Source of the DNA: Runella sp. SP2 | GTDB taxonomy: Bacteria > Bacteroidota > Bacteroidia > Cytophagales > Spirosomataceae | DNA length: 64,000 nt | NCBI RefSeq assembly: GCF_003711225.1 | Contig: NZ_CP031030.1 | Span: 6,003,501 to 6,067,500 of the forward strand | Direction of reading: 5' to 3' | Shown: positions 2,062 to 5,432 of the stretch, piece by piece | Numbering within the stretch: the first letter of the stretch is position 1 | How the letters are laid out: every line of letters starts with the position of its first letter | Position numbers and translations under genes: made by a program | The notes under the pieces: generated by a model | What the model saw: only the letters and a program-made list of their open reading frames with translations | Database searches by the model: none | Told to the model about the DNA's origin: nothing

Positions 2062-2472
2062 ATGAACAAGAAAGACGTATTATCAACGATTTGGGTATTT
2101 GTTACCATCAATTACTTCTACTGTGACCTCATTGGCCTCATGGACGCCTCGTTCTTGAAGCAGTACTTGACGGGGCAGGTCGAAGGCATGATTATTTCTA
2201 AAGAATTTTTGTTGTATGCGGGAATTTTGATGGAAATTCCCATTTCTATGATTCTCTTGTCAAAAATCTTACCCAACAAGGCCAATGCCTGGACAAACGT
2301 TGCGGCGTCGTTGGTAAAAACCCTTGTGATGGTGGCAACGCTATTTATGGGAACACCTACGATTTATTACCTCTTTTTTGCGGTAATTGAGATTTTGACC
2401 ACGATTTTTGTTTTTGTCTATGCCCTACAATGGCTCAAAACGCTCAGGGTTTCTTCGCCAATCGCCGCCTAA
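2062..2472 (+). CDS. Small four-helix membrane protein, DUF6326-like
   Basis: 136 residues from ATG 2062 (MNKKDVLSTIWVFVTINYFY). An upstream in-frame non-ATG start at 2017 would add 15 polar residues and was not chosen. Four hydrophobic segments are visible at about residues 8-28, 48-68, 76-97 and 104-124, with DLIGLMD in the first loop. It resembles the Bacteroidota family annotated DUF6326; the function is unknown. Its 3' end overlaps the convergent Crp/Fnr gene by 29 bp. Confidence 0.7.
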   Translation: MNKKDVLSTIWVFVTINYFYCDLIGLMDASFLKQYLTGQVEGMIISKEFLLYAGILMEIPISMILLSKILPNKANAWTNVAASLVKTLVMVATLFMGTPTIYYLFFAVIEILTTIFVFVYALQWLKTLRVSSPIAA

Positions 2473-3022
2473 TTCTGCTCAATGACTCGGGCTTGACGCC
2501 GATGTAACTGGCAAGCTGGTATTGCGGGATGCGTTGGATAAGGCTAGGCCGTGTTTCGAGCAGGCGCAGGTAACGTTGTTCGGGGGTATCGGTAAGGTAG
2601 GTAGTGACGGTCGCTTGAAATTCGGCGAAGGTATTTTCGACAATTTTTCGGGCAATAAATTCAAGACGAGGGTGTATCTTAAATAACGACTGCGCGGCTG
2701 CGTCGTTGCCAATAAGCAAGACACAAGCTTCGTCGCATACCCAATAATGAGGGGAAGGTTTGGGCGTGTCAAAACTACTGAGTGAAATAATCCATTGGCC
2801 TTCGGTGAAAAAAGCGGTCGTTTTTTCTTCACCGTCCACGAGGCTATATTGCCGTACAAGTCCTTGAAATACAAAAAAAGTAGAAGTGGCCGTTTGCCCC
2901 TCTTGGAGCAAAAACGTCCCTTTTTCAAACGTTTTGATGATTGCGCTGTCCGCAATGGCCGCGGCTTCTTCGGGCGAAAGAGGCGAAATCTTGGAAAAAT
3001 ACTCAACCAGTTGGTTTTTCAT
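2444..3022 (-). CDS. Crp/Fnr-family transcriptional regulator (paralogue 1)
   Basis: 192 residues: a cyclic-nucleotide-binding-like beta-roll (about 25-115; FEKGTFLLQEGQTATSTFFV) and a C-terminal winged helix (about 140-190; QYQLASYIGVKPESLSRIRRRL). The sensor lacks a recognisable cAMP phosphate-binding RxS motif, as is common in the short Bacteroidota branch of the family, so the ligand is unknown. A palindrome GACGT-TGT-ACGTC (3032-3044) lies 10 nt upstream of the ATG and may be an autoregulatory site. A close paralogue is at 4698-5273, and the toxin-antitoxin-chaperone cassette sits between them. Confidence 0.9.
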   Translation of the reverse strand: MKNQLVEYFSKISPLSPEEAAAIADSAIIKTFEKGTFLLQEGQTATSTFFVFQGLVRQYSLVDGEEKTTAFFTEGQWIISLSSFDTPKPSPHYWVCDEACVLLIGNDAAAQSLFKIHPRLEFIARKIVENTFAEFQATVTTYLTDTPEQRYLRLLETRPSLIQRIPQYQLASYIGVKPESLSRIRRRLAKKP

Positions 3023-3072
3023 GATTTTATTGACGTTGTACGTCCATTAACAGCCAAAAAAGAGTACGCCCC

Positions 3073-3558
3073 TTACTCCTTTGCATTAGTTTTTATCCTG
3101 CGTTTCTTTTGACTTGCTTTTTCTTTTATTAAATCAAAAATCGCAATGGAAGGTAAAATATACTTGCCCATTGGGGCATTAGAGGTAATATCCATCAAGA
3201 CCCCCCTTAACAACCCAATCGACATGGTTAATGCAGATAAATTTTTTAGATTTTCCACTTCTTTCTCAGGCACTATTTCTTTGTCCAAAATATACCGACC
3301 AACGCCTTCTAAGAAAAGGGAATAACCTGCTAGAGGCTGTTTAATATTATTAATGCCTATTTTCGTGAATACATCAAAAACTTGATTTGTATCTTCTCTG
3401 GAAGAAATAGCTCTTGTGGTGAAATCTATGTCAATGTGGTAATTACCAAAGAGTTGCTCTTGGACGTTTTCCAAAGGTTCTTCTGGTTGGATGAATTTAT
3501 AACGATTCTCTAGGAGAAAAAAAGTATCAAGAACTAACGGTGATTTCGTTGCTTTCAT
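3073..3558 (-). CDS. SecB-like chaperone of a toxin-antitoxin-chaperone (TAC) operon
   Basis: 161 residues, the length of SecB (about 155). There is an N-terminal beta-rich region (YHIDIDFTTRAIS; LAGYSLFLEGVGRYIL) and then the most SecB-like part at about 113-150: SIGLLRGVLMDITSNAPMG followed by KYILPSIAIFDLI. This corresponds to the SecB helix and C-terminal segment (in SecB, ILFPYARE ... LNLAPVNFDALF). It begins 6 nt after the HTH antitoxin stop on the same strand, so the two are probably translationally coupled. In known TAC systems such a SecB-like protein protects the antitoxin from aggregation and proteolysis. The basic tail KKRRIKTNAKE is unusual. The family is inferred from motif and context. 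Confidence 0.72.
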   Translation of the reverse strand: MKATKSPLVLDTFFLLENRYKFIQPEEPLENVQEQLFGNYHIDIDFTTRAISSREDTNQVFDVFTKIGINNIKQPLAGYSLFLEGVGRYILDKEIVPEKEVENLKNLSALTMSIGLLRGVLMDITSNAPMGKYILPSIAIFDLIKEKASQKKRRIKTNAKE

Positions 3559-3564
3559 AAGTGA

Positions 3565-4041
3565 TTAGGCAGCTGTGTAACTTAAAGTATTTTTTTTGGG
3601 CGAAGGCTCTTTCCAAACTTCGTCACCTTGGTCATAGTTTATCTCCCCGCCATACGATAACTCTTTCCAATACCCTTTAAATGGCTGGTTTTTAGAAAGA
3701 GTTTTTACTGGTTCGGGTTCTTGTCCTTGATAGCTTACAGCTACTACTTCATCTTTCGGTTTAATGTCAAATTCTATACTTAAAGCATTTTGCAATTTGA
3801 CAATTGTTTCAAAGTTGGGGATTTTATCGCCTCTGAAAAGTTGGGTTAGCCAACTTGCTGAAGTACCAATCTTGGCCGCTAATTCTTTGCGGTTAATGCC
3901 TTGTATTTTCATCTCAGTTTGAATGGTACTTAAAAACTGGGCAGCCATCCAAAGAGCATCTAATTCTACTTGATCTTCTTCGGCAAAATCGAAAAGATGT
4001 TCGTAACCTTCAGCCACGATATATTTTTCATTGAATTTCAT
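3565..4041 (-). CDS. HTH-type (HigA-like) antitoxin with C-terminal extension, candidate chaperone-addiction domain
   Basis: 158 residues. An acidic N-terminal segment (1-40) precedes an XRE/HTH_3 domain at about 45-95 (RKELAAKIGTSASWLTQLFR, then GDKIPNFETIVKLQNAL). After residue about 100 there is a roughly 58-residue tail of low regularity with aromatic patches (PFKGYWKELSYGGEINY). Simple HigA antitoxins lack such a tail; in TAC systems a tail in this place is the chaperone addiction domain (ChAD). The gene starts 68 nt after the toxin and ends 6 nt before the SecB-like gene, giving toxin-antitoxin-chaperone order. It probably represses its own operon through the HTH. Confidence 0.78.
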   Translation of the reverse strand: MKFNEKYIVAEGYEHLFDFAEEDQVELDALWMAAQFLSTIQTEMKIQGINRKELAAKIGTSASWLTQLFRGDKIPNFETIVKLQNALSIEFDIKPKDEVVAVSYQGQEPEPVKTLSKNQPFKGYWKELSYGGEINYDQGDEVWKEPSPKKNTLSYTAA

Positions 4042-4109
4042 AGTTTGAATAATGGATTGTAGGTTAATTGGTTCGTATTATTTACCATTACCTCAGAAGT
4101 ATGTGTATT

Positions 4110-4538
4110 TTATCGGACAGATACTTTTGGAGGGGGTAGAGTAGGTTTGTACTCATATTGACCTACTTTTTCAATTTCGGTAATTTCTCTGTTTGAATTT
4201 TTCTGCGACTTTTTTCTTTCGTGTAACCGAGCGGCCACTATTACGAAAACACCTTCGTCGGTGCTAATCTCTTTACAATAAATGCGGTCGTTGGAGCCGC
4301 CTTTGAAGAACTTCATTGCCGTCACATCACGACACTTTTCATTAATGTTTTCCTTGTCATATATTTCAGTATTTTTCTTTCCCTCTAGAATATGTTGCAG
4401 AAGGTACTGAAATTTTTTCTTGTGTTTTTCAGAACGAGTTAAGTACTCCATTATCTCAGCTTCGTTTTCAGTATCAATGAAAATAGCTCGCTTTCCTGCT
4501 TGATTACTTGATAAGAATTTACACGCTCTTAGTGCCAC
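4110..4538 (-). CDS. RelE/HigB-like toxin of the TAC operon
   Basis: 142 residues from GTG 4538 (MALRACKFLSS). No upstream ATG is available, and the TATATTTG box at 4574-4567 fits this start with a short leader. The C-terminal half reads MKFFKGGSNDRIYCKEI ... GVFVIVAARLHERKKSQKNS, like the central strands and the KKSQK helix of HigB/RelE-fold mRNA interferases, and ends in a proline-rich tail. Its likely role is ribosome-dependent or free mRNA cleavage when antitoxin is lost. It is the first gene of the operon, as in HigBA-type loci. The exact toxin family is uncertain; the call rests on motif similarity plus context. Confidence 0.65.
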   Translation of the reverse strand: MALRACKFLSSNQAGKRAIFIDTENEAEIMEYLTRSEKHKKKFQYLLQHILEGKKNTEIYDKENINEKCRDVTAMKFFKGGSNDRIYCKEISTDEGVFVIVAARLHERKKSQKNSNREITEIEKVGQYEYKPTLPPPKVSVR

Positions 4539-4566
4539 AAAATTAAGCTATTGATTAATTATTGTG

Positions 4567-4574
4567 CAAATATA
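4567..4574 (-). promoter_or_regulatory. Putative promoter -7 box of the TAC operon (TATATTTG)
   Basis: Read on the minus strand, TATATTTG fits TAnnTTTG and lies 28 nt upstream of the toxin GTG. The surrounding 100 bp are strongly AT-rich. No TTG -33 element is seen at the expected spacing. Confidence 0.45.
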
Positions 4575-4697
4575 ATACCAAATATGTTTTTGTATAATTG
4601 TTTATCCGTTTTGATGAATTATTTCTACAGCTTAGATAGATTGGGTTTTTAACTCACCTCTATTGTGCTTAATCTATCTTTTCGACTTGTATTGATG

Positions 4698-5273
4698 TTA
4701 CTTCTTCGACAGCCGCCGCCTAATTCTACTCAATGATTCGGGGGTGATACCCAAATAACTCGCAATTTGATGCTGAGGAACGCGCTGGAGCAAGTCGGGT
4801 CGATTGGTTTGCAAATTGAGGTACCGTTCTTCGGGCGAAGAGGTAATAAACGTTGCAAAATCTTCTTGGGTTTTACCAAAACCTTGTTCTACCATCATTC
4901 GGGTGAGCGATTCTAACTTTGGGAATTTTTGGTACATTTCCTTTTCCTCACTTGGATTCCCAACAATCGCAGTCACGTCTTCAACGCACATAAAATAATG
5001 CCTCGATGGCTTTTGTTGGAGGTAACTGTCAAACGAGACAACCGCTTGATTCTCTGTGTAAAAGAACGTCGTTTTTTCGGTGCCATCGTCCAATAAATAC
5101 TGTCTGACACATCCCTTGAGAATGAAAAAGCATTTGGAAGAAATTTCGCCTTCCCGCAAAATGTGCGTGCCTTTAGGGAAAGTTTGAATGTCCAATAAAG
5201 CCACAATCGCCTCCATTTCTTGCCGAGGCAATGGCGCGTCTCCGAATAATTGCTGTAGAAGGTCGCTGTTCAT
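4698..5273 (-). CDS. Crp/Fnr-family transcriptional regulator (paralogue 2)
   Basis: 191 residues from ATG 5273 (MNSDLLQQLFGDAPLPRQ). An upstream start at 5396 would add 41 non-family residues and overlap the divergent gene's leader, so it was rejected. Layout is a beta-roll sensor (about 25-115; FPKGTHILREGEISSKCFFI) and a winged helix (140-190; QHQIASYLGITPESLSRIRR). The last 35 residues are nearly the same as in the paralogue at 2444-3022, and the similarity is visible at DNA level at both 3' ends. It is divergent from the lipoprotein hydrolase at 5433 and could regulate it. Confidence 0.9.
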   Translation of the reverse strand: MNSDLLQQLFGDAPLPRQEMEAIVALLDIQTFPKGTHILREGEISSKCFFILKGCVRQYLLDDGTEKTTFFYTENQAVVSFDSYLQQKPSRHYFMCVEDVTAIVGNPSEEKEMYQKFPKLESLTRMMVEQGFGKTQEDFATFITSSPEERYLNLQTNRPDLLQRVPQHQIASYLGITPESLSRIRRRLSKK

Positions 5274-5432
5274 CGTGTTACAAATCTGGGTACAAATGTC
5301 TGAGTTTTGGCTCAATCTTACGGCTGAAAAATGATGTGTGGTTGCTTTCTTAACCAAAGTCAATGGATACTGTTGGAGGGGACAATAGCTTTGCATCGTT
5401 CATTTAAACATTCACTTTATCTATTATCGGCC

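Follow-up and report, generated by a model that had tools for sequence, protein, structure and literature searches.

Layout of the cassette

The window analysed is a stretch of 64,000 nucleotides from Runella sp. SP2 (contig NZ_CP031030.1, positions 6,003,501 to 6,067,500), and the element in question is a cassette of three intact open reading frames (ORF) on its minus strand, in the order toxin, antitoxin, SecB-like chaperone (window coordinates 4538 down to 3073). The cassette is very probably a real toxin-antitoxin-chaperone (TAC) system of a diverged HigB type; TAC with HigB toxins are already known. A first-pass annotation had placed three same-strand genes in this order, with the last two 6 nt apart, and had read them as a Bacteroidota TAC. 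The ORF were confirmed at those positions, the spacing of 6 nt (3559-3564) was exact, and the TAC reading was supported by gene order, predicted folds, family links and the pattern of the antitoxin tail and end. The features of the cassette are:

4110..4538, minus strand: toxin gene, 142 aa, GTG start, RelE/HigB fold
3565..4041, minus strand: antitoxin gene, 158 aa, with an HTH_3 domain (residues 45-92) and an 85-residue tail after the HTH motif
3568..3582, minus strand: the five codons for the final SYTAA of the antitoxin; an Ala-type end resembling ClpX degrons of the ssrA type, a putative function
3073..3558, minus strand: SecB-like chaperone gene, 161 aa
4567..4574, minus strand: TATATTTG, candidate operon promoter; fits TAnnTTTG, 28 nt upstream of the toxin GTG

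The set goes far beyond chance: toxin relatives number 418 at E ≤ 0.01 (the best 120 listed), chaperone relatives 223 by profile search (the best 120 listed; several named SecB by their sources), and the same three-gene order, with the SecB-like ORF next after the antitoxin, occurred at 23 of the 52 toxin-family loci obtained by scanning one genome per species with the toxin alignment.

The first-pass annotation had put the three genes under one sequence box. TAnnTTTG is the Bacteroidota -7 box, and TATATTTG is present before the GTG, but the motif occurred 33 times on the minus strand within the 64 kb, with a second copy overlapping the toxin GTG (4545), so that the box alone is weak evidence. 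Promoter and terminator scans yielded nothing above chance level.

Toxin and chaperone families

The first-pass annotation had staked its reading on a RelE-like fold of the 142-residue protein and a SecB fold of the 161-residue protein, and both were found in the predicted structures (AlphaFold pLDDT 91 and 93). Divergence of the toxin from common HigB, which had been claimed from its GTG start and C-terminal tail (PTLPPPKVSVR), agreed with the failure of family models to detect it. The Gp49 model matched 2 of the 52 toxin relatives (best E 0.0033), and unrelated models gave chance-like matches with equal or better E. Near-invariant residues in the family were D22, K62-E63, K76-F78-K79, N83, R85, C88, K109-K110 and Y130, with R85 kept in 52/52 members and K109 in 51/52. 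The spacing of K109-x-x-Q112-K113 corresponds in sequence to that of K95, Q98 and K99 of HigB-TAC (PMC9098466). By analogy with studied TAC, the toxin is probably a diverged HigB-type, ribosome-dependent mRNA endonuclease.

The chaperone family alignment (A5; 32 sequences) matched E. coli SecB in PDB (E 0.013). Pfam SecB (PF02556) matched 9/32 members (best E 5.7e-9) and the PADLOC CmdC models (PD-T4-9_C) matched 12/32, the window's own protein not being among the latter. The single window sequence retrieved 6 relatives, one being the cluster to which the window protein itself belongs, and found no relative in genome and viral contigs; remaining rows in the search for further copies in its own genome were at chance level. 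Profiles of its relatives connect the chaperone to SecB where the window sequence alone misses it.

Antitoxin end and chaperone state in the toxin family

Antitoxins were compared across 48 curated loci (chaperone present at 26, absent at 22), namely 44 scan loci, the window, L007, L009 and L010. Eight scan loci were left out, six cut by contig ends (L036, L038, L039, L048, L060, L062) and two whose toxin frame was broken or irregular (L055, L059); L006 repeats L046 and L008 repeats L052. Loci in the tree with a named phylum belonged to Bacteroidota or Balneolota, and L039, outside the curated set, was labelled Omnitrophota. In L055 (3995-4584, Balneolaceae metagenome-assembled genome), the toxin frame is interrupted and the antitoxin intact.

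The tail after the HTH motif had 69-89 residues with the chaperone vs. 38-80 without it, and reached 65 residues or more at 26/26 vs. 4/22 loci. The last residue was Ala in 21/26 antitoxins with the chaperone and 2/22 without it, and an Ala-type hydrophobic last pair occurred in 26/26 vs. 0/22. Among 161 other long ORF of the same contigs, 4 ended in Ala and 8 conformed to the end rule. A later set of 14 loci (5 repeats of known loci, 1 cut [L106], 8 counted) gave an Ala-type end at 2/2 loci with the chaperone and 0/6 without it, the six including L101, with another SecB-like gene, and L102, with a toxin ORF of only 69 aa. The chaperone-free antitoxins of L037 and L041 carry long Lys/Arg-rich tails, so that tail length alone is no marker of chaperone dependence.

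The window antitoxin ends in LSYTAA and the host tmRNA tag is GNYSYAMAA (tmRNA at L109 1503-1875, minus strand). The antitoxin of L009, a relative with the same gene order, ends in DEYAMAG, resembling the end of the host tag. Together with a host ClpX that scores over its curated cut-off and a ClpP-like gene, these likenesses led the end to be read as a copied degradation signal, which the chaperone would mask.

The toxin tree comprised 47 loci (L031, a near-copy of L030, removed; L032 labelled "none" for the chaperone) and required 10 changes of chaperone state, 7 of them on well-supported (starred) branches. The nearest rows to the window toxin were two Dyadobacter toxins without the chaperone (98/97 support). 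Seven independent pairs could be formed on starred branches; the Ala end followed the chaperone in about six of them, as did the long tail (sign tests, median p = 0.031 each; ranges 0.016-0.22 for the Ala end and 0.016-0.063 for the long tail). The chaperone tree followed that of the toxin (Mantel r = 0.72, falling to 0.70 when two long branches were removed; p = 0.001), and antitoxin and chaperone trees agreed less (0.54 and 0.44). The agreement between chaperone and toxin trees speaks for an old association that was lost repeatedly rather than for repeated capture of new chaperones, although joint transfer of the cassette would give a similar agreement and some deeper nodes conflict (L014).

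Decayed chaperones were looked for in chaperone-free loci and rejected, with no remnant in 21 loci (best rows E 0.5 or worse). At L100 (2257-2643, plus strand) and L103 (2308-2697, plus strand), a DUF6941-type third gene takes the chaperone's place behind a related toxin-antitoxin pair (E 5.6e-4 and 8.9e-5, respectively, both under the curated cut-off).

A broader proposal, tentative and held at somewhat below even odds, is that chaperone addiction is a removable package within one toxin family. Three elements would have come and gone together at least 7 times in Bacteroidota and Balneolota: the SecB-like gene, some 30 additional antitoxin residues and an end imitating the host's ssrA tag. The choice between a two-gene and a phage-sensing three-gene module would then lie with the degron rather than with the HTH core or the toxin.

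Insertion, probable mechanism and alternatives

The cassette lies in an insert between two Crp/Fnr-family genes that are outside the system:

3040..4695, minus strand: insert missing from congeners G554 and G555, 1656 bp, GC 35.6%
2444..3022, minus strand: flanking Crp/Fnr-family gene at one edge
4698..5396, minus strand: flanking Crp/Fnr-family paralogue at the opposite edge; alignment with relatives starts only near residue 40

G554 aligns at 94% with window positions 5273-4696 and 3039-1802, and has 23 bp in place of the 1656 bp between them; G555 is alike, with flanks at 89-91% and a 23-bp spacer in place of the cassette. By coordinates, the Crp/Fnr paralogues adjoin in 4 of 12 other genomes of the genus (G554, G555, G556, G190). 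The GC content of the insert was the lowest in the window (median 45.2% for stretches of equal size), and no clear target-site duplication was found at its edges. In G563 and G564, a different 229-aa ORF lies between the paralogues (L069 716-1405 and L070 716-1405, both minus strand), and the gap may accept inserts repeatedly. The toxin profile had no match in any of the 12 other congeners. Among 222 genomes of the host's taxonomic family, the toxin occurred in only two further genomes (Dyadobacter toxins L011 and L017) and the chaperone in one genome. No match was found for the toxin alignment in viral contigs, nor in protein searches of plasmids with toxin and chaperone and of phages with the toxin only.

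The best explanation, at a probability of about 0.83, is a TAC operon with a diverged HigB toxin, a repressing HTH antitoxin with a chaperone-addiction tail, a SecB-like guard, removal by ClpXP and horizontal entry. By analogy with studied systems, the antitoxin would bind the toxin and repress the operon, and its C-terminal addiction tail, with the ssrA-like SYTAA at its end, would be held by the chaperone, keeping the antitoxin stable; in studied TAC, the tail renders the antitoxin chaperone-dependent (PMC5105189, PMC6377645). With the chaperone busy with another client, e.g., a newly made phage structural protein, host ClpXP would remove the antitoxin and the toxin, a predicted RNase, would stop translation. 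The whole operon would have been acquired in one piece, through horizontal transfer into the site between the two Crp/Fnr genes.

Several results weigh against this explanation. Of the profile searches that had been proposed for the three proteins, that of the antitoxin returned HTH_3 (E 4.1e-8), the sole Pfam or NCBIfam match in the cassette, but the toxin and the chaperone gave no significant match in Pfam (including SecB for the chaperone), NCBIfam or PHROGs; what single-sequence searches returned for these two was weak or at chance level. For the toxin, Foldseek by itself gave a weak match (E 0.011 at best, TM 0.42), and the toxin profile had no relevant match among PDB sequences. The gap of 68 nt between toxin and antitoxin is unusual for the family, in which the downstream ORF overlaps the toxin ORF at 45 of the 48 genome loci with a listable downstream ORF, a count inflated by the choice of first starts. 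The Ala-type end rule was framed after the data were seen, and the rule as published (both final residues hydrophobic, taken here as AVLIF), with which the window end TAA conforms, gave a lower split (16/26 vs. 1/21; pair sign test p = 0.0625). L032 and L101 have long antitoxin tails without an Ala end and a different SecB-like third gene; if these two are grouped with the chaperone loci, the split by Ala-type end becomes 28/30 vs. 0/26. The single ClpP-like gene of the host scored under its curated cut-off (285.6 vs. 308.6 bits).

The third genes of L032 (4857-5417, plus strand) and L101 (540-1019, minus strand) matched PADLOC PDC-M64C (E 9.8e-13 and 4e-10, respectively) and had no match to Pfam SecB. 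The two loci may represent a second chaperone branch, working without the Ala end.

A plain HigBA module of two genes, with an unrelated neighbouring SecB homologue that serves protein export and not the antitoxin, is improbable. Modules without a SecB-like gene make up 22 of the 48 curated loci, and the Pfam SecB search found no other SecB in the genome, which leaves room for an export role; the same search misses the window's own chaperone, so that this absence is not informative. Against an unrelated neighbour stand the recurrence of the chaperone gene directly after the antitoxin, the agreement of its tree with that of the toxin, and its co-occurrence with the antitoxin tail and end. An inactive insert, decayed or silent, is slightly less probable still: the sparse distribution of chaperone and toxin points to recent acquisition, but none of the three frames is interrupted, the key columns of the toxin are conserved, and near copies exist in protein clusters from other sequence sources (toxin 82% identical in P0008; chaperone 82-86% in P0002 and P0003).

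That the chaperone guards the antitoxin solely against aggregation, the Ala end being no degron and ClpXP uninvolved, is unlikely, although less so than the two preceding alternatives. Aggregation was the first effect shown for the addiction tail (PMC5105189), but the Ala-type end separated loci with and without the chaperone more sharply than any other feature, is rare in other ORF and resembles the host tmRNA tag, and it equals the ends reported for HigA1 (Val-Ala; PMC8165232) and CmdA (LAA; PMC11618068).

The TAC operon differs from known systems. HigB-HigA-SecB(TA) of Mycobacterium tuberculosis (Rv1955-Rv1956-Rv1957), an actinomycetotal TAC, shares about 11% identity with the Bacteroidota cassette over structural alignments, its tail sequence differs, and HigB family models miss the window toxin. 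CmdTAC (PD-T4-9) of E. coli ECOR22 likewise has a SecB-like third protein (PD-T4-9_C) and an Ala-type antitoxin end, but CmdT is an ADP-ribosyltransferase and not of the RelE/HigB fold. CmdTAC is a proven phage sensor (PMC11618068), and phage defence by the window cassette is suggested by analogy only. HigBAC of E. coli C496 is also a HigB-type TAC and is triggered by the major tail protein of phage lambda (PMC11980606), a likeness drawn by description only. The literature searched gave no description of this lineage, which may have been published elsewhere; a jumbo-phage paper mentioning SecB and an antitoxin was unrelated to the cassette. Judged by sequence, the TAC lineage is unrecognised by the family models tried, and since these models miss Bacteroidota HigB-type TAC, TAC in that phylum are likely undercounted.

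How toxin-antitoxin systems acquire SecB dependence was called an open issue in a review (PMC4257090). The toxin family comprises closely related modules, some with the chaperone and others lacking it, whose antitoxin tail and last residues change in step, and offers a natural series for gain and loss of chaperone addiction. The sister pairs L014/L019, L049/L053 and window/Dyadobacter would allow a direct test of whether the degron decides, if that is true, and the cassette family may supply concrete phage-sensor candidates in Bacteroidota.

The PADLOC candidate system PDC-M64 has no model matching the window toxin. Its models PDLC04760 (E 4.5e-4) and PDLC04758 (E 0.0017) weakly matched the window antitoxin, and PDLC04763 (PDC-M64C) matched 10/32 members of the chaperone family, with E 0.018 for the window chaperone.
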